A stretch of 64,000 bases of DNA from an uncultured Myxococcales bacterium (GTDB lineage Bacteria; Myxococcota_A; UBA9042): contig CAJBNH010000002.1 in the NCBI GenBank assembly GCA_903955385.1, positions 1-64,000 on the forward strand. Reading direction: 5' to 3'. The notes beneath the pieces were generated by a model, which saw nothing but the letters and a program-made list of their open reading frames with translations, had not been told where the DNA came from and searched no databases. The stretch's first letter is position 1. Every line of letters begins with the position of its first letter. Below are positions 15,101-30,317 of the stretch, in pieces. The position numbers and the translations under genes were made by a program.

Positions 15101-15577
15101 CGCGGTGTCTGGCGCCGCATCCGCATCTACCGTGACGTCGGGCATCGTGTCCGGGACGATGTCGGGAGTCGCATCGGGGGCGACATCTTCTGTCGCATCG
15201 GGCAGCACGTCGGGCTCTGCGGTTGTGTCGGCGTCCGTCGCGTTGCTGTCAGGTTCGATCGTGCCGTCATCGACGTCGAGCGCGGTATCCGCAGGCGGCA
15301 GTTCGGGTTCCACGTCGACCGCAACGTCGGGTTGACCATCGACGGCGAGGTCAGGCTGGACATCGGGCGGGATGTCGGCGACGTCCTGCGCAACGTCGTC
15401 GGTGCCAGGTAGGTCGCCGATGGCGTCGGTCAGGGCGCCATCCTCAGGGCCGACGTCTTCGAAGACGAGGGTTGCTTCTGCGACGACCTCGTCCTGGCCG
15501 CATCCGGTGGCCATGATCAGCGCAACAAACGCCAGACCGTAGACCGCCCAGAAGCCTATGGGATGTGTCGGGCGCAT
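12182..15577 (-). CDS. Giant Cys-rich lipoprotein with fibrinogen-like head
   Basis: The 1131-residue product has lipobox MATGC and a GAGAGG ribosome site before ATG 15577. Layout: an acidic Asp/Pro/Thr/Ala linker of about 180 residues; one MopE-like unit (CNGVDDDCNGITDD); a stalk of about 26 Cys-rich half-repeats (CDDGNPCTDDSC type, about residues 215-910); and a C-terminal head of about 200 residues from SCKAIKAAWP. The head carries GIYWLDPDG, ALCEQVKNGGGWLVL and an FLIRQRE ending, which match the fold pattern of fibrinogen C-terminal domains. Such heads bind glycans or acetylated groups in animals; the ligand here is unknown. I infer a long disulphide-braced rod on the outer membrane presenting a recognition domain. 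It is divergent from the MopE-repeat giant at 15902. Confidence 0.87.
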   Translation of the reverse strand: MRPTHPIGFWAVYGLAFVALIMATGCGQDEVVAEATLVFEDVGPEDGALTDAIGDLPGTDDVAQDVADIPPDVQPDLAVDGQPDVAVDVEPELPPADTALDVDDGTIEPDSNATDADTTAEPDVLPDATEDVAPDATPDIVPDTMPDVTVDADAAPDTALDATDASDGSDTSDGSVPSDAADAPDVPGFPCPVGGPKPEGCNGVDDDCNGITDDLACEDANLCTVDICTPGSGCSHVSVAVPCSDGSACTANDYCTGGACKPGLPKSCDDSNPCTDDTCDPSTGCVHTNNSAPCGGGGSCVPGAKCVDGSCLPGAAVPCDDGNPCTIDSCLPQTGCKHEAFSGPCTDGDVCTVSDSCNAGTCQPGAAAVCKDFNYCTDDKCDSTKGCVFPPNTLACNDGSDCTPADTCTNGLCIGSKTGCDDGNPCTADDCKGLDCFHIPTQLPCNDGDACTAVDACQPDGSCQGYNALPCDDGNACSDDFCDPKSGCVFKANVLPCNDGSACTDGDACKAGKCLSGKPKTCNDGDPCTDDGCNAKTGCIAAPGTKAVPCDDGSACTVGDTCDKGVCGGTGLIECVDGNPCTTDACDPKSGCVFVANTLACSDGNGCTVDDVCKASACVPGKSVTCDDNEACTDDSCNPLTGLCVFAANANPCDDGNACTAVDGCAAGKCKSGAPVPCVDGNVCTSDACDVAKGCVFAPVPGSCSDGSACTTDDTCVAGTCKAGASLACDDSSVCTKDACEPAVGCVYTDPGPVTCDDGSACTKDDSCKMGKCQPGAAIVCDDGNPCTDDSCVPAKGCVTVPNANPCWDGNACTGDDQCTGGKCVGGAISCEDGNFCTDNTCDPATGCVSLANTLPCNDNTACTQNDACLAGTCQGKKITCDDGNPCTQDSCDAKLGCVAPAVQNGTTCGDVGVCLSGKCSPGSSVNPATSCKAIKAAWPAGPTGIYWLDPDGSGAGTKYQALCEQVKNGGGWLVLNNLWANTLLTLTNELPNEGKCQISASEWRGWDQFNGAGGPGHRCTASPPTKNWPSYSEMIYDSVTLAGYTGNWGETFDLGTDCYSTTTNGYFCAGPPLGLAAPNTQGTELGNGQKETFSRWVQWGATHTEFLIRQREDGGQAEGLVWNGGTIYLR
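12840..14935 (-). repeat. Cys-rich tandem repeats (about 26 half-units) inside the 12182-15577 gene
   Basis: Half-units of about 24-27 codons alternate between two forms (C-x-DG-x2-CT-x-D-x-C and C-x-DG-x2-CT-x2-D-x-C), giving a full period near 50 codons. Copies differ at many positions but share Cys, Asp and Gly codons, so recombination between copies is plausible. Confidence 0.85.
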
Positions 15578-15901
15578 CAGAAACCTCTCGCGGGGCTGGG
15601 AAGCGAACGAGCGTCGTGTCGCGGCGGCTGGCGGCGGGTCACGAGGCTGCCCAGGGGGAAAGCGCGCCCACGAGCCCATAGCTTGTCAGGCCAGCTTCGG
15701 CGCGACAAGGAAATGGCCAGTGTGCAGATCGCGCAGGGGGACCGTGCGACCCCGATCACGAAGGCGGAAAAGAATCCTTGCCACAGGAGGTTGTCAGCAT
15801 CTTGCTCTGGAACTCAACCGTCGAACCCCCTACAGTACTGGGCAAGGCAGCTCCCCCGGTTCTGGGCTATCGCAGGGGGGGCGGCTTGTGGGGGATCCAT
15901 C
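15578..15901. other. Divergent intergenic spacer between two giant surface lipoprotein genes
   Basis: This 324-base spacer must hold the 5' ends of both divergent transcripts. I see a TACAGT at 15831-15836 that could be a -10 for the rightward gene, but no good -35 at the right distance. A GGGGGA sequence before ATG 15902 is its ribosome site. No repeat, RNA gene or convincing operator was found. Confidence 0.5.
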
Positions 15902-18900
15902 ATGGCGAAATGTCTTGGCCGGCTGTTGCCGGTCATCGGCCTGTTTGTCCTCGCCGCATGTGGCGATGACTACACGGTGGCCGACGACCCGATTCAGGAC
16001 GGGGCCAGCGAAGTCTTGGTCGACGGCGAAGTGGCGGACAGTGACGCCGACTCGTCAGCCGTCGAGGACCCGGGAGCGATAGGTGACGGCGAGTTTCCGG
16101 AAACCGAAATCGACGATCTGGCCGGCGATGCCCAGACCGCAGACGGCGGAGATGCTACGAGCGGCGACGGCGAGGATGCTGCGGATGTTCCCGAAGCGTG
16201 TCCCGAACCCGGAGGCTTCGGTTGCAGCTGCGAGAGCGCGAGCGACTGCCTGGTGGGCTATTGCGTCGAGACCGAGCAGGGCAAGCAGTGTTCCAAGGCG
16301 TGCGGAGAGTGCCCCGCGGATTGGAAGTGCGTTCAGGTCATGGCCGCCGGAGGCGACGTCTCGTTCATCTGCGCTCCCACGCACTTGGGCCTGTGCCGAC
16401 CCTGCAACAGCCACGCAGAGTGCGGCGCTGTCGGCAGTGTGCCGGGCGACAACCTGTGTATTCCTCACGACATAGAAGGTGGAATCGACGGATCCTTCTG
16501 CGGCACGGCGTGCGAGTTGGCAACCGATTGTCCGGTCGGATACTCGTGCACGACGGTGACCCTGACGGGAGAGACGCCCCGCGGTCAGTGCACCCCCAAG
16601 GCCGGTCAGTGCGCCTGCAGCCCCGTCTCCAAGGCAGGCCAGTTGCAGACCGAGTGTGTGCGCGAAAACGGCGATGGCATCTGCAAAGGCGTGCGCTCGT
16701 GTGGGGTTGCGGGACTGACTGCCTGCAATGCGGCGATTCCTTCTCCTGAAGTCTGCAACGGCGAGGACGACGACTGCGACGGTCAGACCGATGAATCCGA
16801 CGCCCAGGGCTGCCAAGTGCTGACGCGCGACCAGGATGCGGACGGTTTCGGCGTGACCGGTGACTCCAAGTGCCTGTGTGAGGCCTCAGCTCCCTATACC
16901 GCCAAGCTGGATGGCGACTGCAACGACTCCGCGGCGGCCGTCTTCCCGAGCGCCGTCGAGTCGTGCAACGCGGCGGACGACGACTGTGACGGCCAGACCG
17001 ACGAAGCGGGCGCTGACGGCTGCGAACCGCGGTTTCAAGACTTGGACGGCGACGGGTTCGGCGACCCGAACCTGACGGATTGCCTGTGCCCAGCGCTGGC
17101 CATCAAGCCTTGGGTGGACAACGGCAAGGACTGCGACGACTCCGACGCTTCCGTGCGGCCCACTGCACAGGAAGCGTGCAACGGCATGGACGACAACTGC
17201 GACGCCCAGACGGACGAAGCGAACGCCCTGAAGTGCGTGGCCTATGCCAAGGACGGCGATAGCGACGGCTTCGGACTGCAGGTGGACACTTTGTGTCTGT
17301 GTGCCGCGGCCTTGCCCCACACGGCGACTGCCACAGGCGACTGCAACGATGGCAATCCTTTGGTGTTTCCGAACGCCGGCGAGTCCTGCAACGGAGAGGA
17401 CGACGACTGTGACGGCGCGGTCGACGAGAAGGACGCGGCAGGCTGCATGACCTACGGCAAGGACTTGGACGGCGACGGCTGGGGGCAACAGGACGACACG
17501 CGATGCCAGTGCGCATCCGCCGGGGCCTACAACACCAAGAAGTTGGGCGATTGCAACGACGACGACTCGCTCGTCTCGCCCGGCACTGCTGAAACCTGCA
17601 ACGGCGTGGACGACGACTGCGACGGCCAGACCGACGAGGTGGGCGCAAAGGGGTGCACCGACTACTACCACGACGCGGACAAGGACGGCTTCGGTGAGGG
17701 CAGCGCCGAGTGCCTGTGCAAGGTCGCCGGGGTGCATACCGCACTTGTTGCTGGCGACTGTGACGACGGCAACGTCAAGGCGCATCCCGGAGCTGCGGAG
17801 GTCTGCAACGACTTGGACGACAACTGCGACAACGGCATCGACGAGGGCTGCGACCCGGATGGCGATGGTTTCTGCGCCGCTGAGATGGCGGTGACGGCTC
17901 CTCCCCCGGCGACCTGCTCCAAGGGGGGCGGTGACTGTGACAGCGGCAAGGCGAGCGTGAATCCGGGTGCCGTGGAGGCGTGCAACGGCGTTGACGACCA
18001 GTGCAACGGTCAGACGGACGAGCAAGGCGCAAAGGGTTGCGCCGTGTACTTGCGCGACGACGACAAGGATGGCTTCGGCAAGACCGGGGACACCCGGTGC
18101 CTTTGCGCCGCGGCGCTGCCGTATACCGTCACAGCCGACGGAGACTGCAACGACTTGGATGACAAGGTGAATCCGAACGCGCTCGAGGCGTGCAACGGCG
18201 TCGACGACCAGTGCGACGGCCAAACCGACGAGACCGGGGCGAAGGGCTGCGAAGCGCGTTGGCAGGACGTCGACGGCGACGGTTACGGAAACCCTGCTCT
18301 GTCAGCGTGCGTCTGCGTCAAGGTCATCGGTGCCGGGTGGGTGGCGAACGGTACGGACTGCAAGGACACCGACTCCGACGTTCATCCAGGTCAGGCAGAG
18401 ACGTGCAACGACAAGGACGACGACTGCGACGGCCAGACAGACGAGCAGGACGCGTTGAAGTGCAAGGTCTTCCTCCGGGACGTCGATGGCGACGGCTTCG
18501 GCTTGGCCGCCGACAAGCGCTGTCTGTGCGCGCCCGCCGACGGCTATTCCGCGACCCAAGAAGGCGACTGCAACGACAAAGACAAGACCGTGAACCCGGC
18601 GATGACCGAGGCCTGCAACAACGTCGACGACGACTGCGACGGCACAGTAGACGAACCTGGTGCCCAAGACTGCAAGGTCCGAGCTTGGGACGGAGACAAG
18701 GACGGCTGGGGACTGCAAGACAAGACCCAGTGCCTGTGTGTGCCAACCGGCTTCTTCACCGCGCTGAAGGTCAACGACTGTGACGACGACCAGCCGTTCG
18801 TCAACCCCGGCGTGGCTGAGGAGTGCAACGGTGTCGACGACGACTGCGACGGCGTCATCGACGAACCCAACGCGCTGGGCTGTACCGACCTGTACCAGGA

Positions 18901-20800
18901 TGTGGACAAGGACGGGTTCGGCTCGATCGAGAAGGCGTGTCTGTGCAAGCCGTTGGCACCCTTTACCGCCTTGGTCGGTGGCGATTGCGACGACGGCAAC
19001 GCCAAGGCCTATCCGAAGGCAACAGAGTCCTGCAACGACACGGACGACAACTGCAACGGCCAAGTCGATGAGGGCTGCGACGACGACAAGGACGGCTTCT
19101 GCGATGCGGGCATGGCAACGGCCGCTCCTTTGCCGGCGGTCTGCCCCAAGGGCGGCGGCGACTGCGACGACACCGCTGAGGCGGTCCATCCCGGGGCAAC
19201 CGAGCAGTGCAACAACGTCGATGATGACTGCAAGACCGGCATCGACGAGGGGTGTGATGACGACAAAGACGGCTTCTGCGACGCCCAGATGCAGGTCGCG
19301 ACCCCCGTTCCGACCGTCTGTCTCAAGGGAGGCGGTGACTGCAAGGACACCGTGGCAGGAGTCAATCCTGCCGCGGCCGACTTGCCTGATGCCAGCTTGG
19401 CGGACACCAATTGCGACGGCATCGACGGCACGATCGCGGCCGCAGTCTTTGTCGACGCCGCGGGAGGTGACGACGGTTGGCCGGGCACACCCGACCAGCC
19501 CAAGGCCACCATCCAGGCCGCCATCGCCGCCGCCGTTGCGGCAGGCAAGCATGTGTTCGTGTCCAAGGGCCAGTACGGCGGACCGGTGACGTTGGCCAAT
19601 GGCGTCTGGCTGGTCGGCGGCTACGACCGTGCGGCGAAGTGGGAGCGTGCGCCCAAGAACGTGACCCGGATCTTGTCCACCCAGGTGCAGAGCGGTCGAA
19701 TCGTCGGTGTCCTCGCGCCCAACCTCTCGCTGCCCACCGCGCTGATGTCGATGACGGTGCAGGCGGGCGCCAATGGGACCGCCGGCGGAAGCTCGTACGG
19801 CCTCTACGCGTCGAACGGAAACGGCCTGATGGTCGAGGACTGTGTGATCGAGGCGGGCGCCGGAGGTGGGGGCATCTCGGGCGCGGCGGGCGCCAAGGGC
19901 AGCAACGGCGGCAACGGAACGGCCGGTGCGGGCGGGACATCCAACGGCTCCGGTGGTGGTGCCGGCGGGTCTGGCGCCATCAGCGGCTGCGGCGCGTCGG
20001 GCGGGGCCGGTGGTGCAGGTGGGTACAACACTGGAGGCGGAGCCGCCGGCAGCCCGGGGAGCAACGGTGGCGGCGCGGGAGGCTCCGGTGCCGGCACTGG
20101 CAACGGCTGCGACCGCACGGGCGGAGGAGGCACCGGCGGCAGCGCCGCGGCGGCAACCACCCACGGTGGCAGCGGTTCGGGAGGCGGCACGGTCGTCGGC
20201 GGTTGGTGGATTCCCGGCGGCGGCGGCGATGGCCTGCAGGGACCAGCTGGTCGCGGCGGCGGTGGCGGTGGCGGCGGCGGCGGCGGCAGTTCCTGCGCGT
20301 CCTGCTTCGCTTGCAGCGTGTTCGGCAACTGCATCTGCAACGCCGACCGCGGCGGTGGCGGTGGCGGCGGCGGTGCGGGAGGTTGCGGCGGCGGTGCAGG
20401 TCTCGGTGGCGGTGGCGGCGGCGGGTCCTTTGCGATCTTCCTCGTCACAGCCTCGCCCTCCGTTGCTTCGACCAGCCTGAAGACTGCGGACGGCGGCGTC
20501 GGGGGAGCGGGCGGCGCATCGGGCGCAGGCGGCGCAGGCGGTCTCGGTGCGGGCGGAGGCGGAGGACCAGATGACGGCGGCGACGGCGGAGGTGGGGCCA
20601 ACGGCTCGGCGGGTGGCCCCGGAGGCGCGGGCGGCGGCGGCGGTGGTGGAGCCAGTTTCGGCATCTACAAGGCGGCGGGTTCGTCTCCCTCCGTCGGTGC
20701 GGGGATGGTCTACGTCATTGGCAAGGGGGGCGCAGGAGGCGCGGCAGGCACGGGCGCCAACTTCCCGGGCCAGATAGGTGCAGCCGGCAACAGCAACTAG
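15902..20800 (+). CDS. Giant MopE-repeat lipoprotein with beta-helix start and Gly-rich (PGRS-like) tail
   Basis: The 1632-residue product has lipobox LAAC (Cys20) and an acidic linker to about residue 100. A Cys-rich segment follows (about 100-280; includes FGCSCESASDCLVGYC). Then come 13 MopE-type units (CNG-x-DDDCDGQTDE) at about 66-residue spacing, each followed by a Ca-loop (D-x-D-x-DGFG), to about residue 1160. A short domain with VFVDAAGGDDGWPGTPDQP and ATIQAAIAAA looks like the start of a DUF1565/pectate-lyase-like beta-helix. The last 315 residues are over half Gly. MopE of Methylococcus binds copper, but the units here may bind calcium; this cannot be decided from sequence. I chose ATG 15902 because the frame upstream has no signal peptide. 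Confidence 0.88.
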   Translation: MAKCLGRLLPVIGLFVLAACGDDYTVADDPIQDGASEVLVDGEVADSDADSSAVEDPGAIGDGEFPETEIDDLAGDAQTADGGDATSGDGEDAADVPEACPEPGGFGCSCESASDCLVGYCVETEQGKQCSKACGECPADWKCVQVMAAGGDVSFICAPTHLGLCRPCNSHAECGAVGSVPGDNLCIPHDIEGGIDGSFCGTACELATDCPVGYSCTTVTLTGETPRGQCTPKAGQCACSPVSKAGQLQTECVRENGDGICKGVRSCGVAGLTACNAAIPSPEVCNGEDDDCDGQTDESDAQGCQVLTRDQDADGFGVTGDSKCLCEASAPYTAKLDGDCNDSAAAVFPSAVESCNAADDDCDGQTDEAGADGCEPRFQDLDGDGFGDPNLTDCLCPALAIKPWVDNGKDCDDSDASVRPTAQEACNGMDDNCDAQTDEANALKCVAYAKDGDSDGFGLQVDTLCLCAAALPHTATATGDCNDGNPLVFPNAGESCNGEDDDCDGAVDEKDAAGCMTYGKDLDGDGWGQQDDTRCQCASAGAYNTKKLGDCNDDDSLVSPGTAETCNGVDDDCDGQTDEVGAKGCTDYYHDADKDGFGEGSAECLCKVAGVHTALVAGDCDDGNVKAHPGAAEVCNDLDDNCDNGIDEGCDPDGDGFCAAEMAVTAPPPATCSKGGGDCDSGKASVNPGAVEACNGVDDQCNGQTDEQGAKGCAVYLRDDDKDGFGKTGDTRCLCAAALPYTVTADGDCNDLDDKVNPNALEACNGVDDQCDGQTDETGAKGCEARWQDVDGDGYGNPALSACVCVKVIGAGWVANGTDCKDTDSDVHPGQAETCNDKDDDCDGQTDEQDALKCKVFLRDVDGDGFGLAADKRCLCAPADGYSATQEGDCNDKDKTVNPAMTEACNNVDDDCDGTVDEPGAQDCKVRAWDGDKDGWGLQDKTQCLCVPTGFFTALKVNDCDDDQPFVNPGVAEECNGVDDDCDGVIDEPNALGCTDLYQDVDKDGFGSIEKACLCKPLAPFTALVGGDCDDGNAKAYPKATESCNDTDDNCNGQVDEGCDDDKDGFCDAGMATAAPLPAVCPKGGGDCDDTAEAVHPGATEQCNNVDDDCKTGIDEGCDDDKDGFCDAQMQVATPVPTVCLKGGGDCKDTVAGVNPAAADLPDASLADTNCDGIDGTIAAAVFVDAAGGDDGWPGTPDQPKATIQAAIAAAVAAGKHVFVSKGQYGGPVTLANGVWLVGGYDRAAKWERAPKNVTRILSTQVQSGRIVGVLAPNLSLPTALMSMTVQAGANGTAGGSSYGLYASNGNGLMVEDCVIEAGAGGGGISGAAGAKGSNGGNGTAGAGGTSNGSGGGAGGSGAISGCGASGGAGGAGGYNTGGGAAGSPGSNGGGAGGSGAGTGNGCDRTGGGGTGGSAAAATTHGGSGSGGGTVVGGWWIPGGGGDGLQGPAGRGGGGGGGGGGGSSCASCFACSVFGNCICNADRGGGGGGGGAGGCGGGAGLGGGGGGGSFAIFLVTASPSVASTSLKTADGGVGGAGGASGAGGAGGLGAGGGGGPDDGGDGGGGANGSAGGPGGAGGGGGGGASFGIYKAAGSSPSVGAGMVYVIGKGGAGGAAGTGANFPGQIGAAGNSN
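16748..19390 (+). repeat. 13 tandem MopE/Ca-loop repeats inside the 15902-20800 gene
   Basis: The unit is about 200 bases. Each copy encodes CN-x2-DD-x-C-(D/N/K), then a DE or IDE, then D-x-D-x-DG and two further Cys. Three of the 13 copies (about 17810, 19030 and 19210) have a variant loop, DEGCDxDxDGFC, and lie next to CSKGGGDC-type spacers. Confidence 0.85.
19852..20797 (+). repeat. Gly-rich low-complexity coding region
   Basis: About 315 codons dominated by GGC/GGT/GGA with Ala, Ser and Asn, resembling mycobacterial PE_PGRS tails. Two Cys-rich islands (near 20290-20350) and two ordinary strand-like segments (SFAIFLVTASPSVAS and ASFGIYKAAGSSPSVG) interrupt it, which suggests a Gly-rich beta-helix or polyglycine-type fold, not pure disorder. 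Confidence 0.8.
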
Positions 20801-20833: not shown

Positions 20834-21301
20834 CTATGCAGCAGAGGCGGTCGCCACTTCGGTCGTGGACGCTCCGACACGAGCGACGCGTTCCTGTCCG
20901 CCAGCGAGTTTCGACGCCTTGACGACCCGAACCCAAGCGGCGGCGACCGCCTCTTCCGGCAACCGGTTCAGGCCCAGCGCCTCCGCGTGGCGGTCCAGAG
21001 TCTCGAGCACCCGGTCGCCGTACGCGGCCAGCTTGGCGGGACCGATGCCGCGAATGCTCAGCAGCGCAGCCGAGTTGCAGGGCCTCAGGCGGGCGACTTC
21101 CCGCAGCGCAGCATTGGTCAGCACGGTGAAGAGCGGCACCCGAAAGCCCAAGGCGGCCGTCCGTTCGGCCGCAAGCTCGCGGCGGGTCGCGCGAAGAAAG
21201 TCGTAGAGGGCGACTTCGGCGGGGGCCAGCGGCGCGGGCGTCGCAGCATCCTCGGCAACAGCATCGGCAGGGCAAATGGGGAGAGCGGGAATCGTTGGCA
21301 T
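20834..21301 (-). CDS. Stand-alone HRDC-domain protein
   Basis: The 155-residue product consists of a 25-residue leader, an HRDC domain (about 30-105: LYDFLRATRRELA, PLFTVLTNAALREVAR, LLSIRGIGPAKLAAYG) and a short Ala-rich tail. HRDC is the accessory nucleic-acid-binding domain of RecQ helicases and RNase D; here there is no helicase or nuclease domain. I infer a DNA-binding or regulatory protein. ATG 21301 is favoured by TGAGGA five bases upstream; an ATG at 21313 is possible. It follows the cytochrome b561 gene on the same strand after 197 bases holding a strong inverted repeat, so it may be a separate transcript. Confidence 0.82.
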   Translation of the reverse strand: MPTIPALPICPADAVAEDAATPAPLAPAEVALYDFLRATRRELAAERTAALGFRVPLFTVLTNAALREVARLRPCNSAALLSIRGIGPAKLAAYGDRVLETLDRHAEALGLNRLPEEAVAAAWVRVVKASKLAGGQERVARVGASTTEVATASAA

Positions 21302-21436
21302 GACAGTCCTCATCCAGGGCGGGTCGCCCGGTGGACTGCCATCGATTCAAGGAGCGTGCCAGACACGTTGACTGTCGCAACTACATGAAAGAACGGATAT
21401 CGTTGTCGTCCCGCAGTTTCCCGGACGCGACGTTCC

Positions 21437-21474
21437 TCGGTCTCGAGACCGAAGGGAGACCGTCTCGAGACCGA
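21437..21474. other. Perfect 13-bp inverted repeat built from two GTCTCGAGAC palindromes
   Basis: The arm TCGGTCTCGAGAC (21437-21449) is repeated inverted at 21462-21474 with a 12-base loop. Each arm contains the palindrome GTCTCGAGAC; the left one extends to a 16-bp perfect palindrome (21437-21452). The two palindrome centres are 22 bases apart, two helical turns. It lies 25 bases past the cytochrome b561 stop and about 136 bases before the HRDC start. No T-run follows on either strand, so a plain rho-independent terminator is less likely than an operator or an RNA-stabilising hairpin. Confidence 0.65.
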
Positions 21475-21498
21475 CTCCCGACGCACGGGAACTTCCGA

Positions 21499-22251
21499 TC
21501 AGTCGTCGTCGTCACCACCGTCTTCGTGCTTCTCTCCCGCCTCTGAGCCACCCTTGCCCTCGGCCCCACCCTCGCCGGGTTCACCGAGATGCAGAACGCC
21601 GAGGCCGGGCAGTGCGACCTCGCTTTTGGCAGCGTCGTAACCCGTGAACAGCGCGCCGCCCCATAGGCCGACCAGCACCAGAAACAGCACGGCGACCGAC
21701 GGGTGCGCCGACGGGATCGCCTGTTCGGCGTCCGCCACGCGCTGGCCGTGGACCATGCTGAGGGCAATCGCCTCCTTGTGCCGCACGGTATGCCACACGA
21801 TGCCCGCCAAGTGCGCGACGACACTCAGGACCATCACAAGGACGAACCCCTCGTGCACGTCCTTCGCAGCCTCATTTCCCTGGCCCATCGCAATGCCTGT
21901 GGCGGCAAGGCCCAGAACGGCGACGAACATGGCGGCAATGGCCCACGTGGACCCGGGGTTGTGTCCGGCGTAGCGTTTGCCCCCTCCCGCAAAGGCGCCC
22001 TTCAGGTAGTCGACCAGGCCCTTGGGCGACCAGGCGAAGTCGCCGAACCGGGCGTGCTTGGACCCGACGAAGCCCCAGACGACGCGCAGGGCGACCAGAA
22101 ACGCCGCGGTCAGGCCCAGCAGCATGTGCAGGCGAAAATTCGGGCTGTCGTCGTCGAGCAGCTGCGCGATGGCAAACGCCCCGACGAAAGCAACGGCCAG
22201 CAGCCAATGAAACAGGCGGGTGGGGATGTCCCAGACGAGAATTCGGGGCAT
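21499..22251 (-). CDS. Cytochrome b561-type membrane electron carrier
   Basis: The 250-residue product begins MPRILVWDIPTRLFHW, the typical start of di-haem b-type cytochromes of the Ni/Fe-hydrogenase/b561 class, which pass electrons between quinol and a partner. Four membrane segments lie at about 12-32, 40-62, 102-122 and 134-156, with a fifth near 185-205. Candidate haem ligands are His15, His42, His133 and His147; the last pair shows the H-x13-H spacing. The C-terminus is a Gly/Glu/Asp tail ending in four Asp. ATG 22251 has GAGG upstream. It is the last electron-transfer gene of the block 30317-21499. Confidence 0.9.
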   Translation of the reverse strand: MPRILVWDIPTRLFHWLLAVAFVGAFAIAQLLDDDSPNFRLHMLLGLTAAFLVALRVVWGFVGSKHARFGDFAWSPKGLVDYLKGAFAGGGKRYAGHNPGSTWAIAAMFVAVLGLAATGIAMGQGNEAAKDVHEGFVLVMVLSVVAHLAGIVWHTVRHKEAIALSMVHGQRVADAEQAIPSAHPSVAVLFLVLVGLWGGALFTGYDAAKSEVALPGLGVLHLGEPGEGGAEGKGGSEAGEKHEDGGDDDD

Positions 22252-22353
22252 GACAAACCTCATGGTTGTAGGGGAGAAGGGGACGTTGGAGGAACAGGGG
22301 CGGTGGCGCAAATTCGGTGTGGAGTTGGGAGGTCGGCCCAGCGGAGGTGCCGG

Positions 22354-24558
22354 TCAGGCCGTCATGGGTCGTCCAAAGTGCGTCCGCGTCCGCACGCCGG
22401 CACCCTGCAACAGTTTGGTGGGCAGTGTGCCGCCGATCGACACCAGCACGTCGTCGATCTCGACCACTTCGCCGTTCGTCAGGCGCACCCTCGTCGCCTC
22501 GATCGCTGTCGCACCGGTTTCGAGGTGCAGCACGACCTTGGCTTGGGCGACGGCATCTTCAAGCCGGGTGCGGTTGGCGGCCTTGGCGCGGTCGAAGTCC
22601 TTGCGTCGATGAACGAGGTGCACCGCGGCACCAGCCTGGCCCAGTGAAACGGCAGCCTCGATGGCAGAGTCTCCACCGCCGAACACCATCACGCTGTGGC
22701 CAGAAAACGGCTCTGGCTCCAACAGGTTGTAGATCACGTGGGGCAATTCCTCGCCCGTGACGCCCAGCCGCTGCGGCGAGCCCCGCCGACCCACCGCCAG
22801 CAGCACGCGCCGGGCGCGCAGCCGGGTTGCGCCGGCCACGACGACGAAGCCGCCGTCTGGGTGCGGCTCAAGGGCGTCGGTCTTCATGCCATAGCGCAGG
22901 TCCAGCTCGACCCGGGCAAGCACGTCCTCCCAGACCGCAATCAAGTCCTCTTTCAAGACGTTGTACAGTGCGAGCTTGCCGTAGCCAGGCAGGTGCACGG
23001 GCTCAGTCATGACGATCTTGGCGCGCGGATAGTGGCGAACGGCGCCGCCAGCCTCGGGCTCCTGCTCCAGCGTCACGGCACGCAGCCCCTTCTCCTTCGC
23101 GGCGAGACTTGCCGCCAGGCCCGCTGGTCCCGCTCCGACGATGCACAGGTCCCACTCGTCCTCAGCGGCGCGGCGGTGGTCCTTGGCATGACGCGCGGCG
23201 ATGTGGTCCACCGCTTGCACGGCTTGGCGCACAGCGTTGCGGATCAGGCCCATGCCGGTCAGCTCGCCGACCATGTAGACGCCGGAGACGGAACTCTCGA
23301 ATTGCTCAGAGACGTCGGGGATGTCGACCCCGCGCCGCAGGCTTCCGAACACGAGAGTGATCGCCTCGACCGGGCAGTTCGCCGCGCAGGCGCCGTGACC
23401 CACGCAGTGCGACGGTCCCTCCAGCCGACTTCGGCCGTCGATCAGCGCCAGGATGTCGCCCTCTGGACAGGCCGCGACACAAGCCGCGCTGCCCATGCAG
23501 CGGCTGGGGTCGATGTAGGGGTGAAGGGTCGGCGGCGGTTCGGGCGGGGCGCCATCCGTGACGTGTACTCGGGCAGTGCCTCGTCGGCGCCGACGGCGAT
23601 ACGCCACCTCCGCGCCCCCGAGAACCACCAGCATCGCTGCAACGAGTCCCACTGAGACCCACCCGCCACCGGGCATCGGCCAGCCATAGCCATGCTGGAC
23701 CGCGCTCCAGACGTGTCGCCCGGCGGCCCAGGCCATCACCAGCGCGGCGGTCAGGTGCACCCAACGCCAGGAACGCAGCAAGCGGGCGGCGCGTCCGGCG
23801 ACCAAGCGCGCGTGGCCAGCCCGAACGGCCTCTTGAGCCTGCTCAGCCGCCCAGTCGTGGGTCTCGGCGTCCAGCACCCCGCCGTGCACGCGCAGCAACC
23901 GCCGCAGCTGAAATCGTCGCAACAGTCCCGCCAAGGGTGAGATGAGCAGGCGCGCGGCGGCCGTCAGCGCGTTCTTGCCGGACGCAGGACGGTCCAAACC
24001 CGCCAATCGGGAGACGCTGGCCAGTAGCGGATGTTCGGGCCCGAGACGTTCGGCCATTCGCGCCAGCGCCTGTTCTGCGCGTCCGTGCAGACCCGTCGGG
24101 TCCTCCTCGCCGGAAGCGGTGTGCGGCACCAGCATGTACAGGTAGCGCCCGACGACGCCGGTGGTCACCAATACGATGACGGCCCAGGCGGACAAGCTCG
24201 CGGCCTCGCTGGTCATCTGGAAGTTGGCGTGCAGAAACAGCAATGCGCCGCCGACCAGCCCCAAAAACACATGCGCGGTCATCCAGGACCGCAGCGTCCC
24301 CAGCCGGTGCGTCGAACGAAACCGTCGCCGCAGCAGGTACAGCAGATTGCCCACGAAGAGCACGACCGCGACGCTGCCGATCCAGCGGCCGATCGGCCCC
24401 GCTGAGCGCAGATCGTCGTAGCGGGGGTGGTCCAGCTGCACGTTCGACGGCAACAGGTAAAAGTCTCGCCCGTTCAGAAACAAGGCGATGACCGCAGCGA
24501 GTCCCACGACCAGCAGCACGCCTTCGACCACCCAGCGGTGACGCTTCGACCCAGCCAT
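22354..24558 (-). CDS. Membrane fusion: two-haem b module, two-cluster ferredoxin, FAD/NAD(P) oxidoreductase
   Basis: This 734-residue protein should move electrons between NAD(P)H and the membrane or periplasm. Residues 10-145 and 265-320 hold about six membrane helices. His96/His110 in one helix and His268/His282 in another both have the H-x13-H spacing of cytochrome b and ferric reductases, so two b haems are likely. Residues 350-400 form a ferredoxin-like domain with Cys354/360/364 and Cys385/391/395; the usual second Cys of each cluster is Ser357 and His388. From about 435 comes a thioredoxin-reductase-like flavoprotein: VGAGPAGLAASLA for FAD and GGGDSAIEAA for NAD(P), with no CxxC redox pair. 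ATG 24558 follows GAGG. The gene starts 40 bases after the barrel gene. Confidence 0.88.
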   Translation of the reverse strand: MAGSKRHRWVVEGVLLVVGLAAVIALFLNGRDFYLLPSNVQLDHPRYDDLRSAGPIGRWIGSVAVVLFVGNLLYLLRRRFRSTHRLGTLRSWMTAHVFLGLVGGALLFLHANFQMTSEAASLSAWAVIVLVTTGVVGRYLYMLVPHTASGEEDPTGLHGRAEQALARMAERLGPEHPLLASVSRLAGLDRPASGKNALTAAARLLISPLAGLLRRFQLRRLLRVHGGVLDAETHDWAAEQAQEAVRAGHARLVAGRAARLLRSWRWVHLTAALVMAWAAGRHVWSAVQHGYGWPMPGGGWVSVGLVAAMLVVLGGAEVAYRRRRRRGTARVHVTDGAPPEPPPTLHPYIDPSRCMGSAACVAACPEGDILALIDGRSRLEGPSHCVGHGACAANCPVEAITLVFGSLRRGVDIPDVSEQFESSVSGVYMVGELTGMGLIRNAVRQAVQAVDHIAARHAKDHRRAAEDEWDLCIVGAGPAGLAASLAAKEKGLRAVTLEQEPEAGGAVRHYPRAKIVMTEPVHLPGYGKLALYNVLKEDLIAVWEDVLARVELDLRYGMKTDALEPHPDGGFVVVAGATRLRARRVLLAVGRRGSPQRLGVTGEELPHVIYNLLEPEPFSGHSVMVFGGGDSAIEAAVSLGQAGAAVHLVHRRKDFDRAKAANRTRLEDAVAQAKVVLHLETGATAIEATRVRLTNGEVVEIDDVLVSIGGTLPTKLLQGAGVRTRTHFGRPMTA

Positions 24559-24598
24559 GAAGCCTCGTCCCCTTGCCACGTCCCAGATACGCCGTTGA

Positions 24599-26362
24599 CT
24601 ACAGCCGTCGGGAGACCAGCACCATACAGTCGAAATAGGCACTTGCGTTGGGACCGTCGACGGCCAGTGCCTGCTCGCCGCCCAGATCGGCGGCGATCAG
24701 CCAGTTGTCGATGCGCCAATCGGCCCCAACGTGCACGCCCAGCGGCACAGCGGCGACCTCCACCGGGCCGACGGTTTCCAGCGACGTGCGCGCTCGCGCG
24801 TGCCACCCCTGTGACTCCGTGCGTTGCCAGCGGCCGCCCGCGGAGAGTCCGAGCGCCTGCTGACTCCCCGACGCCCGCAGAAACGTTCCCGCGTTCCAAG
24901 TCCAGCGACCCAGCGGATCCACGCTGCCCGAAGTGCCGAGTCCCAAGCCGCCCTGCCAGCCCTCGTAGGCATCCCCTGAAGACGTCCGGGAGACCCAGGC
25001 TTCCGGTTGCCACGTCACGCCAAGCCACGGTGGCAGGTCCATCTGCGTCCACAATGCCTGATGATCGCTGACGGTCCAGCCTTGGTAGGGCAAACGAGCC
25101 GCCCACTGCCGGGTCAGGTCGTCCGATTGATAGACGTACCGCAGGCGCCCGCGCCATCGAGCCGTAGGCGTCGCCAAGTCCACCAGCGCACGCCCGAGAT
25201 GTACGCCTTGCGGGCTGCCCGAGGCCGCGAACGGCGTGCCGGTCAGGTCCGAAGGCGCCAGCACCAGACTCAAGTCCGCGTATCCCGTGCCCCAGCGCGG
25301 GTGTTCGATCCAACCGCCGGCGCCCAGCGTTTGCCGGTCCAGGCCGCCCTGCCAGGTCTCTGCACCATAGCCGGCGGCCCACCACGCCTGCGCATCGCCC
25401 GCCGTGCCTGACCAGGTCAACCGCGCCCCCAGCCGACCGGACTCGACATCCGGAGCAAAACCAAGCGGATCTGGCGTCAGGCCACCGTAGCCTTCCAGCT
25501 CGGCCCCCTCCCATACCGCGACGCGTACGGCGGCACCGTCGACTGCTTGCAGCAAGGCACCGTCGCCGACCAGCGTTCGCCCCAGCGACCCGCCCCAGCG
25601 TCGGTCCCGGCCGGTCGCGATGCGCCCTTCCAGCAACCGCACCCGCAAGGAACGCTCCGCAGCAGACCGCGGAACCCCGCCCAGCGTATCGAGATCCAGC
25701 CCAAGGTCGTGACGGTATGCGACCGGACTCCCGCCCAGCGACGGCAGCGTCAGGTGGCTCGTCAGTCGCGCGGTGGCCCACGTCTGGCCGCCCGGCTGCC
25801 CGACCATCAACGCGACCAGCGTCAGGTCGCCCTGCGGCCGCAGCTCGCGCACCGAGGGGGCTCCGGCGCTTCGCTTGGAGGGCACGATCTGTGGCTGACC
25901 GGCCGCCAGAGAAGTCCAGGTCTGTTCGTCTTGCACGGAGCCCTCGGCCGAAGCCGGAGCGACCTTCCAAACCCGCGCCGGGTCGCCGACTGCGGGCGTC
26001 TGGACTGGCTCCACGGCACCGACGGTTTCCCCCACGTCCGGTGTCGGTCCGGGCTTGGCGACGGCCCGTGCACGGTCGCCCGCAACGTCGCTCACTTCAA
26101 GCTCGAAGACGAGCGGCGGCACTTTCGGACCCTTGCCCGGCCGCTGGACCTTCGCCGCGCGCTCTATCCGAAGCACCTGACCTTTCTGAAAGTGCTCGCC
26201 GGGGGCCAGCCGCAGGAACACGTCGCTTCCTTGGCTGTGCGGTGCCACGGCAGTCACGGTCGCCGCTGCCGCCGTCGCCGCCACAAACCACGCGCACACT
26301 GCGGCGATGGCACCGCTATGGCGCGCATGGTGGACCAGCGGACGTCGCAGGGTCTCAGTCAT
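24599..26362 (-). CDS. Predicted outer-membrane barrel protein coupled to the cytochromes
   Basis: The 587-residue product has a signal peptide (to about residue 34, ATAAAATV), a small N-terminal domain (35-105, LAPGEHFQKGQVLRIER, like an SH3-type fold), a linker, and from about 175 a long Gly/Trp/Tyr-rich alternating sequence that reads as about 18-22 strands (for example GYADLSLVLAPS, WRGRLRYVYQS, GVHVGADWRIDN). I infer a porin-like barrel. ATG 26362 lies inside the end of the 13-haem lipoprotein gene (8-base overlap), so the two are translationally coupled. The pairing recalls porin-cytochrome conduits (MtrAB or Pcc type), but no sequence family match is recognised. The C-terminal residue is Leu, not the usual Phe. 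Confidence 0.75.
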   Translation of the reverse strand: MTETLRRPLVHHARHSGAIAAVCAWFVAATAAAATVTAVAPHSQGSDVFLRLAPGEHFQKGQVLRIERAAKVQRPGKGPKVPPLVFELEVSDVAGDRARAVAKPGPTPDVGETVGAVEPVQTPAVGDPARVWKVAPASAEGSVQDEQTWTSLAAGQPQIVPSKRSAGAPSVRELRPQGDLTLVALMVGQPGGQTWATARLTSHLTLPSLGGSPVAYRHDLGLDLDTLGGVPRSAAERSLRVRLLEGRIATGRDRRWGGSLGRTLVGDGALLQAVDGAAVRVAVWEGAELEGYGGLTPDPLGFAPDVESGRLGARLTWSGTAGDAQAWWAAGYGAETWQGGLDRQTLGAGGWIEHPRWGTGYADLSLVLAPSDLTGTPFAASGSPQGVHLGRALVDLATPTARWRGRLRYVYQSDDLTRQWAARLPYQGWTVSDHQALWTQMDLPPWLGVTWQPEAWVSRTSSGDAYEGWQGGLGLGTSGSVDPLGRWTWNAGTFLRASGSQQALGLSAGGRWQRTESQGWHARARTSLETVGPVEVAAVPLGVHVGADWRIDNWLIAADLGGEQALAVDGPNASAYFDCMVLVSRRL

Positions 26363-27452
26363 CGGCGAATCCCTGCGGGTGGCACTGGTAGCACTTGGCC
26401 GCCGTGTAGGCGTAGCCCCCCTCGCCATTGTGTTCCTTGTCCGTCGAGCTCTTGGAGTGGCAGTTGCCGGACATGCACGTGAACGCCTTGTAGCTGGTCG
26501 GATCCTGATGGCACTGCAAGCAAGTGAACTTCGAGTGCTTGCCCGACGTGATGGGAAACTTGGTGTGACTCGGCATCTTGGCCGGCTTCCACGCGGTCGG
26601 GGTGTGGCAGGATTCGCAGGTGGTTCCGAACCCTTGGGTCGCGTGGTTGGGCACCTTCGTCGCCTTGTACTCGGCCATGTGGCACGCAGAGCACGTCTTG
26701 GGTGGTGGCAGGTCTGAGGTGTGGCACTTCTCGCAAGCGGTCGTCAGGTGCTTGCCCAGCAGCGGGAACACCTTGGCATGGTCAAACCCGGTCGCAGGCT
26801 TCCAACCGTTGGGCGTGTGGCAGGTCTCGCAGGTCTTGGCGAACTTGCCCGTCACGTGGTTGGGCACCTTGGCTGCCACGTAGTCGGGCTCGTGGCACGC
26901 AACGCAGGTCTTGGGCGGCGGCAGATCGGACGTGTGGCACCCCGCGCACGCGGTCGTCGCGTGCTTGCCCAGCAGCGGAAAGACGGACGCATGATCGAAG
27001 CCGGTCGCAGGCTTCCAGCCGGATGTCGAGTGGCATTTCTCGCAGGTCGTCGGGTAGTTGCTGGTCACGTGGTTGGGGACCTTGACCCCCAGATAGGCAG
27101 GCTCGTGGCAACCGACGCACGTCTTGGGGGGGGGCAGATCGGTCGTGTGGCATTGCTGGCACGCGGTGGTCGTGTGCTTGCCGGTCAGCGGGAACACGCT
27201 GTTGTGGTCGAAGCCGTTGGCGGGCTTCCATGCCGAAGTGGCATGGCACGACACGCAGTCGGTGCTGAAGCCCAAGGCGGTGTGGTTGGGCAGCTTGGTG
27301 GCCTGGTAGTCGGGGGTGTGGCAGCTGGCGCAAGGCACTTCGACAGGGTCGGGTTCGGCGAGTCCCAACTGCTGGCATCCGGACGCAGCGACCACGGCCC
27401 AGCACGCCAGACAGGCGCTGACGATCCTCTCGAGTCGTTGGCATTGGTCCAT
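26355..27452 (-). CDS. Multihaem c-type cytochrome lipoprotein (13 CxxCH plus one CX4CH)
   Basis: The 365-residue product has lipobox AASGC (Cys26) and 13 CxxCH haem motifs; a fourteenth site, CMSGNCH near the C-terminus, has four spacer residues. Four near-copies of a unit of about 65 residues are visible (KVPNHVT..CETCH..GWKPATGFDHAKVFPLLGKH..ACxxCHTSDLPPPKTCxxCH), each with three haem motifs. Lone His in FDH and GKH are probable distal ligands. I infer a haem wire anchored to a membrane by lipid, in contact with the barrel whose gene overlaps it. GGGAGG precedes ATG 27452. It starts 27 bases after the 36-haem gene. Confidence 0.93.
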   Translation of the reverse strand: MDQCQRLERIVSACLACWAVVAASGCQQLGLAEPDPVEVPCASCHTPDYQATKLPNHTALGFSTDCVSCHATSAWKPANGFDHNSVFPLTGKHTTTACQQCHTTDLPPPKTCVGCHEPAYLGVKVPNHVTSNYPTTCEKCHSTSGWKPATGFDHASVFPLLGKHATTACAGCHTSDLPPPKTCVACHEPDYVAAKVPNHVTGKFAKTCETCHTPNGWKPATGFDHAKVFPLLGKHLTTACEKCHTSDLPPPKTCSACHMAEYKATKVPNHATQGFGTTCESCHTPTAWKPAKMPSHTKFPITSGKHSKFTCLQCHQDPTSYKAFTCMSGNCHSKSSTDKEHNGEGGYAYTAAKCYQCHPQGFADD

Positions 27453-27479
27453 GGACTGCCCTCCCCCGGTCGAACGACG

Positions 27480-30317
27480 CTAACCCTTATGATGGCAAGA
27501 ATAGCAGGCGTGCGACTCCCAAACGAATCCGCCGACGCCATCGTGCTCTCCGGTCATGCTGGACTGGTTGTGCTCGTGGCACGCGGTGCACACGAACTGG
27601 CCGGCCTTGACCTGACCCGGATGGCATGAGGTGCACGACATTCCGGAGTGTTCGCCAGACGATATCTCAAACCAGCTGTCATGCCACCGGCCCACCAGAA
27701 CGTTCCACGCGACCGCGGTGTGGCAGTCGCCACAGGTCTTCGGGAAACCGCCCGCCACGTGATCCGGGTGCGAAGTCAGGTAGTCGGCCTGATGGCAGTT
27801 CAAGCAGTCGCGGCCGAGGCCCCGGTAAACGCCGCCCCCGTGGCACGACGCGCAAGCGGCCGTGGCGTGGCGTCCTTCCAGCGCCCACCAGCGGCCGTGG
27901 TCCACCTTCGCCGGGTTCCACGTCCACGTCGTGTGGCAGGTCTGGCAGCCGGGTCCGAAGCCGGCGACCCGGTGATCGGGAACGCGCACGGCTTGTGCCA
28001 GATCGCGGTGGCAGTCGCCGCAGACCGTCGGCGCGCCCGAAAACTGCTGCACGTCTCCTCGGGGGTGGCACGAGCGGCAATCGGCGGCCAAGTGTGCACC
28101 CGTCAGAGGGAATCGAGTGTTCTCATGCTTCGGCAGGCTGCGGGGCTGCTTCCACGACAGGGCGCTGTGGCAGTCCTCGCAACGCGGGCCCATGCGGCCC
28201 CCGTGCGCGTCGGCGTGGCAGGCGGCGCAGGCGCGAGGCACCGGACCGTTTCGTTCTGTGGGTCGGTGGCACCCGCTGCACGGCGCTTGAGCATGTGCGC
28301 CGGTCAGTGGCACGCCGGTGAGACGGTGATCGAAGGCCACCTTGGCGGGAACGGAACTCCAGCTCTCCGTCGAGTGGCACGACGCGCAGGCCCAATCGGC
28401 GACGCCGGCCACCGCCCCGTGCGCCAAGCCCAACGTTGATCCGTCGATGTGCGGATTCGAGTGGCAGTTCGCGCAGTTGCGTGGGCCGATGCGGTACATG
28501 GCGCGCGTCACGCCGTCGGACGTCTTGACCTGACCGTGGCACTTGGCGCACGCCGCCTTGGCATGGGTGCCGTCGAGGGGGAAGCGCGTCTTGGAGTGGT
28601 CGAAGGCCGCGATCTTGAAGGTTTGTCCGCCACCGTGGCAGTCGTCGCAGGCCTTGGCCGGACCGCGTGATGCGAACTGCGCGCCGTGCGGGTCGCGGTG
28701 GCACTGTTCGCAGCGGCCGCGCGTCCCCGTGAACTGCACTGGCGCGTTGGCCTGGGGCCGGAAGTGGCACGCGGCGCACGCAACCTTGGCGTGCGGTCCG
28801 GCAAGCGGGAACCGGGTCTTCTCGTGGTCAAATGCCGACGGTGTGAAGCCCGGCGTCGAGTGGCAGTCCTGGCAGCCCAAGGGCGGGTTGCGCTTGACGA
28901 ATTGTCCACCGTGCGGGTCCCGGTGGCAGCTCTCGCACGTCTGCGCCAGATTCTGCAGCTTGGGCGGCGTCGGGGGCTTGGGCGGGGCCGGCGTCGGTCG
29001 CTGGTGGCACTCTGCGCAGGCGACGGTTCGATGCGCGCCGGTCAACGGGTACTTCGAGCGGTCGTGGTCGGGCATGCCGTACCGCGCGGGGCGGAAGGCC
29101 TCGACGCGATGGCACGTCTCGCATTTGTCACCGGCCTGCACCGACGCGAACGGACCGCCGTGCGGGTCACCATGGCACTCCTGGCACCGCTCGCCGGGGT
29201 GGGCGAAGAACCGCTGGCGATAAGGCTGGCCGGCAGTGTGGCATGCCGTGCAGGCGACCGTGCGGTGCGCTCCCACCAGCGCGTAGCGGGTCTTGCCGTG
29301 GTCGAAGCGGGATGTGGCGGTCATGTGCCAGTCGCTCGCGCCGTGGCACGCGCTGCAGTCCTGGCCGAAGCGGCCGGCATGGGGCTCGCGGTGGCACGAG
29401 GCGCACTTGCGGTCGACCTTGGCGAAGCGCTCGATCCCCTTCACTTTTTCTTTGGTCGAGTGGCACTTTTCGCAGGTGATCTCGGCGTGCCGACCGCGCA
29501 GCGGCAGCTTGGTGCGCTCGTGCAGGTCGACCCCCGCCTTGGGGGCGACCACGGTCCATCCCTGCACGGAGTGACACGTCGCGCAGTCCTTGCCGCCGCT
29601 GTGGTTCGCTTTGGGTTCCTTGTGACAGTCGGTGCACTTCGCGAATGCGACGCCGCGATACACGCCCGCCTTGCCCTCGGCCTTGTGGCACTTGGCGCAC
29701 GCGACGTCCTTGTGCTTGCCGTCCAGACGGTACTTCGCCTTGTCGTGGCTGAAGCGCTCAGCCTTGGTGAACTTCACTTCCGTGTGACAGTCCGCGCACT
29801 TGCCGCCCAACGTAGGCTTGTGCGGATCCTCGTGGCACTTCGCGCACGTCGTCAGCGCCAGGCCCGTCCAGCGGTTGGGGGTCTTGTGGCAGTCGGCGCA
29901 CTTCTTGCGAGCGTGGGCGTCGCGCAGGACGAAACCGGTCTGTTCGTGAGGAAACTTGTCCGGCGGCGTCCACCGCACCATCTGGAAATCTCGCCCACGG
30001 TGCTCGCGGTGGCATTGCGCACAACGCTTGCCCGAGTCGCGCGCTTGGGTGGCGTGGAACTTGGACTTCGCGGTCTTGTCGTGGCAGCTCAGGCACTTGG
30101 CGTCGGTCGGCCCTTGCTCTGCGTCGTGGCATTTGCCGCAGGTCTCGGGGGTGTCCCACTTGGCATGGGACTTCGCCAGCGGGCCGGGCGAGGTGGACTG
30201 CGCCATGGCCGAATCAGGCATCAGCCATGTTGCCGCCACCAGCGCCAGACCGACCATCCACCGCGGCCACAACAGAGCGAAGTGTAGGGGAATAGGTTGG
30301 TTTGCCGCGCTGCGCAT
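27480..30317 (-). CDS. Giant secreted c-type cytochrome with 36 CxxCH motifs
   Basis: The 945-residue product has a signal peptide ending near DSAMAQ (about residue 40) and 36 CxxCH motifs by my count, about one per 25 residues, enough for a long haem chain. Repeating blocks include FDHxKTRFPLxGxHxxVACAxCH and CxxCHxDPHGGxF, the pattern of the c7/'doubled CxxCH' families. No other domain is seen, so its role is electron conduction or storage in the periplasm or on the surface. ATG 30317 has only a weak ribosome site (GGAA). It is the first gene of the conduit block; the 249-base divergent spacer to 30567 must hold its promoter. Maturation would need a cytochrome c synthesis system, not seen in this window. 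Confidence 0.93.
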   Translation of the reverse strand: MRSAANQPIPLHFALLWPRWMVGLALVAATWLMPDSAMAQSTSPGPLAKSHAKWDTPETCGKCHDAEQGPTDAKCLSCHDKTAKSKFHATQARDSGKRCAQCHREHRGRDFQMVRWTPPDKFPHEQTGFVLRDAHARKKCADCHKTPNRWTGLALTTCAKCHEDPHKPTLGGKCADCHTEVKFTKAERFSHDKAKYRLDGKHKDVACAKCHKAEGKAGVYRGVAFAKCTDCHKEPKANHSGGKDCATCHSVQGWTVVAPKAGVDLHERTKLPLRGRHAEITCEKCHSTKEKVKGIERFAKVDRKCASCHREPHAGRFGQDCSACHGASDWHMTATSRFDHGKTRYALVGAHRTVACTACHTAGQPYRQRFFAHPGERCQECHGDPHGGPFASVQAGDKCETCHRVEAFRPARYGMPDHDRSKYPLTGAHRTVACAECHQRPTPAPPKPPTPPKLQNLAQTCESCHRDPHGGQFVKRNPPLGCQDCHSTPGFTPSAFDHEKTRFPLAGPHAKVACAACHFRPQANAPVQFTGTRGRCEQCHRDPHGAQFASRGPAKACDDCHGGGQTFKIAAFDHSKTRFPLDGTHAKAACAKCHGQVKTSDGVTRAMYRIGPRNCANCHSNPHIDGSTLGLAHGAVAGVADWACASCHSTESWSSVPAKVAFDHRLTGVPLTGAHAQAPCSGCHRPTERNGPVPRACAACHADAHGGRMGPRCEDCHSALSWKQPRSLPKHENTRFPLTGAHLAADCRSCHPRGDVQQFSGAPTVCGDCHRDLAQAVRVPDHRVAGFGPGCQTCHTTWTWNPAKVDHGRWWALEGRHATAACASCHGGGVYRGLGRDCLNCHQADYLTSHPDHVAGGFPKTCGDCHTAVAWNVLVGRWHDSWFEISSGEHSGMSCTSCHPGQVKAGQFVCTACHEHNQSSMTGEHDGVGGFVWESHACYSCHHKG

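Follow-up and report, generated by a model that had tools for sequence, protein, structure and literature searches.

The putative porin-cytochrome c complex 3 (PCC3) was proposed bioinformatically from Proteobacteria in 2017 and, in the main text of that proposal, was reported from Alpha-, Beta- and Gammaproteobacteria, including Gallionellaceae and Leptothrix (He et al., PMC5566968). Its cytochromes are described there as separate periplasmic (~21 haems) and extracellular (~34 haems) proteins with an amino acid/haem ratio of 22–39 (median 26), its porin as having up to 42 strands, and its inner-membrane protein (IMP) as a separate protein of ~300 residues with SGXXG on transmembrane helix 4 (TM4) and WX3HX13H on TM3 and TM5. 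The periplasmic subunits of Gallionellaceae carry 21, 24 or 27 haems (PMC10734462), and the function of PCC3 is described as unverified (PMC12442390). He et al. put the quinone pool at the inner end of PCC3, and also likened the HX13H pairs of the IMP to those of the flavin-fed ferric reductase/NADPH oxidase (PMC5566968). A cytoplasmic partner is not named in the main texts of PMC5566968, PMC10734462, PMC12442390, PMC8788666, PMC12016527 and PMC13386937, the supplements of which may mention a flavin adenine dinucleotide (FAD) gene. Here we describe four adjacent genes, P0001–P0004, from a 64,000-nucleotide stretch of the genome of an uncultured Myxococcales bacterium (contig CAJBNH010000002.1, positions 1 to 64,000; the window). 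They probably, though not securely, constitute a PCC3-type trans-envelope conduit in which one protein combines the IMP with a cytoplasmic NAD(P)H dehydrogenase.

The N-terminal half of P0004 carries the WX3HX13H motifs of the PCC3 IMP on TM3 and TM5 (WMTAHVFLGLVGGALLFLH and WRWVHLTAALVMAWAAGRH), and between them, on TM4, lies TGVVG, in which T replaces S of SGXXG. In an alignment of 18 IMP sequences from several phyla, Trp, His and G..GR are among the twelve invariant positions, and the betaproteobacterial IMPs are reached, at values down to 1.9e-9, by a single-sequence search with the IMP half of the window. PF01794 is absent among the best 25 of the 26 Pfam matches of P0004 (E 0.1). TM3 and TM5 are predicted to be parallel, and since they would run in the same direction, the two His pairs would sit on opposite sides of the membrane, with the pair 97/269 (numbering of alignment A4) on the cytoplasmic side and 111/283 on the periplasmic side. 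Charged loops and an extra sixth helix would place the Fe-S/FAD half in the cytoplasm, although the transmembrane model is modest.

The fold of the FAD half matches ferredoxin-NADP+ reductases (FNRs), YpdA and thioredoxin reductases (TrxRs) (7apr, 6gar, 3ab1), and no CxxC redox disulfide was seen in it. Its nucleotide motif is GGGDSA...HRR..R, of which the TrxR-like HRR..R suggests NADPH. The second of the two ferredoxin motifs reads CxxHxxCxxxCP in 38 of 39 homologues, with His replacing the second Cys, while the equivalent position of the first is Ser, Thr or Cys; a His-ligated or altered second [4Fe-4S] cluster is possible. What is new here is this [4Fe-4S]/FAD-NAD(P)H module, a candidate for the cytoplasmic partner of PCC3.

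P0001 contains 36 CxxCH motifs against a chance expectation of ~0.5 for its composition (7.6% Cys, 8.5% His), and no frame in the 64 kb scanned other than those of P0001 and P0002 has more than one. The two proteins have 26.2 and 28.1 amino acids per haem, respectively. Residues 1–635 of P0001 hold 23 CxxCH and align with separate 23-haem proteins of relatives (loci L012–L015), whereas the 13-haem counterpart of the C-terminal module is a gene of its own in L012–L015, L018 and L021. The alignment of P0001 to these split relatives breaks at residues ~630/640, exactly at the 23/13 boundary; by this comparison of sequences, P0001 joins into one chain two proteins, of 23 and 13 haems, that several relatives encode by two genes. 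Exactly 23 haem motifs are also found in Emticicia and in several loci of Bacteroidota, Acidobacteriota and Planctomycetota. The C-terminal module of P0001 and P0002 have in common the C-terminal signature EH-x-G-x-Y/W-x-C-x2-CH. P0002 is a probable lipoprotein, with a plausible, non-canonical lipobox (AASGC, near residue 26) and clearer lipoboxes in its homologues at L017, L035 and L036.

The AlphaFold2 model of P0003 comprises 22 strands after residue 177 (mean predicted local distance difference test score, pLDDT, 62.8), and its 50 best fold matches in the PDB are all outer-membrane barrels. The best of them were low-scoring generic barrel matches (by TM-score), and an identity as a pilus usher was not accepted. 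P0003 has no match in Pfam or NCBIfam, which is also the extent of its comparison with OmbB of the Geobacter Pcc conduit (OmbB-OmaB-OmcB), and the MtrB/PioB models (PF11854 and MtrB) have none in P0003, in 13 members of its family or in 24 genomes. The family is also found in several phyla (Bacteroidota, Planctomycetota, Acidobacteriota and Calditrichota), beside multihaem or IMP-type genes. Iterated searches with the barrel drifted into proteobacterial porins, and because a core profile built without these porins did not recover them, profiles were compared with each other, alongside reversed controls, to test the homology again. With a broad profile, hhalign gave 95–97% for the barrel against proteobacterial PCC3 porins and 0.5–6% for the reversed controls, and P0003 is, on this comparison, probably a distant relative of those porins. 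Among PDB sequences, the barrel profile matched TsaP alone, weakly and through the N-terminal domain. This small β domain (residues ~35–117 of the 587-residue form) has a weak resemblance to the C-terminal part of TsaP (PDB 3jc8, E 5e-4); it may be periplasmic and may dock the wire.

Nine other genomes of the family to which the window belongs also carry the set P0001–P0004, and relatives of P0004 within this family are 52–58% identical; single-sequence searches found P0003 in 10 of 22 same-family genomes and in none of 31 other near genomes. Every locus long enough to judge (L011–L021) retains the order multihaem–(multihaem)–barrel–P0004. An earlier note on this DNA had read the cluster as a possible electron conduit with an unusual gene order. 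The order proved to be ordinary within this family and is kept in relatives, whereas the conduit-like character of the cluster is supported. Motif counts, Pfam and AlphaFold2 confirm the parts that were listed (the 36- and 13-CxxCH cytochromes, a barrel, a b-haem/ferredoxin/FAD protein and a b561 gene on one strand), and the outer-membrane location of the barrel, on which the proposal had been made to depend, is what the AlphaFold2 model and the PDB fold matches of P0003 predict. The b561 gene, P0005, had been counted as a fifth member, but no homologue of it occurs near the cassette in same-family relatives. The conserved unit is therefore one of four genes, and P0005 was dropped as a part of the conduit. 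The range then given to the cluster, 20834–30317, runs 665 bp beyond P0005 into an open reading frame (ORF) with an HRDC domain. One relative, G007, has the entire cassette twice, on C232 and C249 (L016 and L017). A comparison of RpoB gave 62% with a same-phylum genome and 57–59% with several Proteobacteria-like genomes, which places the host only loosely, near Proteobacteria-like phyla; its family may be Myxococcota-like.

Outside this family, a scan of genomes with the P0004 sequence alone gave no match, but a P0004 alignment used as the query, with one genome per species, found relatives in Zixibacteria, Bacteroidota, Pseudomonadota, Nitrospirota, Planctomycetota, Acidobacteriota, Calditrichota, Bdellovibrionota and a deltaproteobacterial metagenome-assembled genome. 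The loci were read as six-frame ORFs with profiles, a simple gene caller having missed barrels. At least one conduit part (IMP, multihaem or barrel gene) accompanies 23 of the 26 strong homologues of the FAD half, from about eight phyla, with a membrane protein within 8.5 kb in 20 and a protein of at least 10 CxxCH within 8.5 kb likewise in 20; this sample was drawn by FAD patterns and then confirmed with the whole fused query, which may favour loci with an adjacent IMP. None of 54 weaker FAD homologues has any conduit part nearby. Among plasmids searched by tblastn, only that of Emticicia carries the whole set. It is a split version of the cassette on pEMTOL02 of Emticicia oligotrophica (Bacteroidota), with a b-type membrane protein, a [4Fe-4S]/FAD protein, 23-haem and 40-haem cytochromes and a 539-residue barrel, adjoining a cytochrome c assembly gene. 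The fusion order is IMP-FAD in the family of the window and FAD-IMP in six Planctomycetota, and the two parts are separate genes elsewhere. Since both orders form separate groups on the FAD-domain tree, the fusion arose at least twice.

A second sample, free of the bias of the first, came from an IMP search of 200 genomes belonging to the order of Thiobacillus, one of them the Thiobacillus starting genome. All ten IMPs scoring at least ~190 bits (that of the starting genome and nine others) adjoin a gene for 20 to 27 haems, and all ten have a divergently transcribed FAD gene immediately adjacent. A second multihaem gene (11–62 haems) comes next in 9/9 loci read at full length, and a porin is present in 8/9. 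On gene content and motifs, these betaproteobacterial loci correspond to the published PCC3. Weaker IMPs (88–124 bits; eleven loci, L158–L168) lie beside 9–10-haem proteins, with a different FAD match (120–141 bits) in 2/11 and no porin detected near any of the eleven; this group resembles what He et al. call 'other multihaem' or PCC4. Two of its loci encode a protein of 789–791 residues with a divergent FAD domain.

In the proposed mechanism, electrons would pass from NAD(P)H to FAD and on to the two [4Fe-4S] clusters, from these to one haem b and then the other, each bis-His-ligated by TM3 and TM5, and from the b haems through the 23-haem periplasmic wire to the barrel P0003 and the 13-haem module. 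At the surface, this module and the 13-haem lipoprotein would deliver them to an acceptor such as a metal oxide, a humic substance or a partner. Such a mechanism can be likened to that of ferric reductases and NADPH oxidases, extended across the outer membrane. Export is the likely direction, given the low potential of NAD(P)H as a donor and a path that would carry negative charge outward; the inner-membrane step would therefore dissipate energy rather than conserve it. The cassette would thus probably act as an NAD(P)H-driven extracellular reductase or a redox-overflow valve. The host genome encodes cytochrome c assembly proteins and also a haem-copper oxidase, so that the host probably has another sink for electrons besides the conduit, and a redox valve or a nutritional or defensive extracellular reductase would be as likely a role as respiration.

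The same parts could also work inward, drawing electrons from Fe(II), Mn(II), a partner cell or a cathode outside and feeding them to a quinone or NAD(P)+, and such conduits can be reversible. PCC3 is found in iron oxidisers and is modelled in the main text of He et al. as running from donor to quinone (PMC5566968), and one PCC3 inner-membrane gene goes up with iron-oxidation activity in Sideroxydans CL21, as stated in PMC12442390. Export is nevertheless favoured: in S. lithotrophicus ES-1, according to PMC8788666, growth on Fe(II) goes with lower levels of both PCC3 clusters than growth on thiosulfate. The module attached to the IMP is, moreover, an NAD(P)H-type flavoprotein. By established bioenergetics, reduction of NAD(P)+ by electrons from iron through two b haems is uphill in redox potential and runs against the membrane potential, and we regard uptake as unlikely. 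Less probable still is a quinol-driven respiratory extracellular electron transfer, in which the IMP would be a quinol dehydrogenase and the FAD/Fe-S half an auxiliary or regulatory input of NAD(P)H. The IMP was likened by He et al. to the cytochrome b of bc1 and of hydrogenase, which exchange electrons with quinones (PMC5566968), and the FAD subunit is a separate gene in many lineages; the comparison of its HX13H pairs with flavin-fed enzymes in the same paper, the near-constant linkage of the FAD gene and its repeated fusion argue the other way. That there is no trans-envelope conduit at all, the cytochromes storing electrons in the periplasm or at the surface and the barrel being an unrelated porin, is very improbable. 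Although subcellular location is known by prediction alone and P0003 has no specific match to a solved conduit barrel in PDB fold or sequence searches, its family adjoins the same multihaem genes in four other phyla as well as in the family of the window, and a large porin occupies the equivalent place in the betaproteobacterial clusters.

Several points weigh against an NAD(P)H-driven PCC3-type conduit. The AlphaFold model of P0004 has a mean pLDDT of 73.3, with ~45–70 in the transmembrane part, and that of the barrel has 62.8; confidence in both is moderate. The barrel of the window is only remotely related to the proteobacterial PCC3 porins, against which hhalign gave 1% with a family-only profile, and the cassette is patchy, its barrel occurring in fewer than half of the same-family genomes. 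The nucleotide motif is YRS, YRG or YRK in other lineages, so the nucleotide may differ there; the IMP could exchange electrons with quinones as well, as He et al. have it, and the FAD domain could run in reverse. The domain content, the motifs, the conserved order, the fusion in both orders and the linkage across phyla are observed, whereas the cofactors, the location of the proteins, the direction of electron flow, the preference for NADPH, the acceptor and the activity are predictions.

For years PCC3 has figured among the possible iron oxidases, with no electron donor or acceptor in the cytoplasm known for it. That partner would be named by the fusion and by the near-constant linkage of the FAD gene described here, from which it is predicted that NAD(P)H reduces the wire; the likely role of PCC3 would then move away from the oxidation of iron and towards redox balance or export of electrons by reduction. 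We propose, tentatively, that PCC3-type conduits across at least eight phyla serve as trans-envelope reductases that are driven by NAD(P)H and bypass the quinone pool through a two-cluster FNR-like subunit, and, jointly and with the same reserve, that this subunit, with its His-substituted second motif, was previously unrecognised as a part of PCC3. The range of PCC3-type conduits would come to include Bacteroidota, Planctomycetota, Acidobacteriota, Nitrospirota, Zixibacteria, Calditrichota and the family of the window, so that environmental genomes would be annotated differently for extracellular electron transfer.

The features of the locus are collected in Table 1. The longest ORF of P0003 overlaps P0002 by 74 bp; its likely start, ATG 26362, is followed by a signal-like helix and reduces the overlap to 8 bp. 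For P0004 the likely start is ATG 24558, and for P0005 it is 22263 or 22251. With these starts, successive genes are separated by 27 bp, an 8-bp overlap, 40 bp and ~90 bp. Terminator-like matches are rarer than in shuffled sequences, with one inside P0004, one inside P0005 and none between the four genes P0001–P0004. Pfam finds multihaem c families in P0001 and P0002, Fer4 and Pyr_redox in P0004, and Ni_hydr_CYTB in P0005 (PF01292, E 1.6e-26). The secreted protein encoded near the cassette has repeats of the form GDCDD..PGA.E.CN..DDDCDG.TDE, reminiscent of MopE-type metal-binding proteins, and its homologues lie near the cassette in L012, L015 and L017.

Table 1. The cassette in its order of transcription, followed by neighbouring genes (positions in the 64-kb window)
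Feature	Position	Strand	Description
P0001	27480–30317	−	945 residues, signal-like N terminus, 36 CxxCH
P0001 N-terminal module	28413–30317	−	23 CxxCH; PCC3-type periplasmic multihaem wire (predicted)
P0001 C-terminal module	27480–28412	−	13 CxxCH; multihaem cytochrome of extracellular type, continuous with the wire
P0002	26355–27452	−	365 residues, 13 CxxCH; predicted lipoprotein cytochrome, likely surface subunit
P0003	24599–26362	−	Predicted outer-membrane β-barrel with small N-terminal β domain; longest ORF starts at 26428
P0004	22354–24642	−	Whole ORF
P0004 N-terminal half	23536–24558	−	PCC3-type IMP, two b haems predicted, sixth transmembrane helix added
P0004 C-terminal half	22354–23535	−	Two ferredoxin-like [4Fe-4S] motifs and FNR/TrxR-like FAD-NAD(P)H domain
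P0005	21499–22263	−	b561-type cytochrome (PF01292), downstream of P0004
HRDC-domain ORF	20834–21313	−	RecQ/RNase D-like C-terminal domain; unrelated to the conduit
Cys/Asp-rich repeat protein	15563–20800	+	1745 residues, secreted; ends near the cassette

The FAD half of P0004 has the fold of TrxR-like FNRs and YpdA, but shares its chain with a membrane b-haem domain and two ferredoxin-like clusters. With ferric reductases and NADPH oxidases (FRD, pfam01794), P0004 has in common two HX13H pairs on two helices, two predicted b haems and a cytoplasmic NAD(P)H-FAD domain, which is, however, TrxR/FNR-like and not of the NOX type; in addition, ferredoxin-like clusters are interposed and the recipients would be multihaem c wires. 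The cassette follows the logic of MtrCAB, MtoAB and PioAB in combining a periplasmic multihaem protein, a barrel and a surface multihaem lipoprotein. It differs from them in a barrel without PF11854, in haem numbers of 36/13 instead of 10/10 and in the inner-membrane partner, and the DmsE-family decahaem model matches only far below its cut-off. The suggestion of the earlier note that the barrel and flavoprotein belong to a distinct conduit thus stands with regard to MtrCAB, no PF11854 or MtrB match being present in the barrel or the genome, but not in the sense of an unknown class, since the set matches the published PCC3 (PMC5566968).

The likeness to PCC3 is the closest of all. As in PCC3, a predicted β-barrel porin is clustered with two very haem-rich cytochromes and an inner-membrane protein; the IMP motifs are present in P0004, both multihaem proteins fall within 22–39 residues per haem, the 23-haem module of periplasmic type compares with a periplasmic partner of 21–27 haems, and the betaproteobacterial PCC3-type sets also adjoin an FAD gene. 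In turn, the periplasmic wire of the window is fused to a 13-haem module and is accompanied by a separate 13-haem lipoprotein, the barrel is shorter (~22 predicted strands compared with up to 42) and remotely related, the gene order is different, and the host lies outside the Alpha-, Beta- and Gammaproteobacteria. Because its IMP is fused to a [4Fe-4S]/FAD-NAD(P)H module, and is not the separate protein of ~300 residues found in PCC3, the cassette of the window would represent a variant of PCC3.

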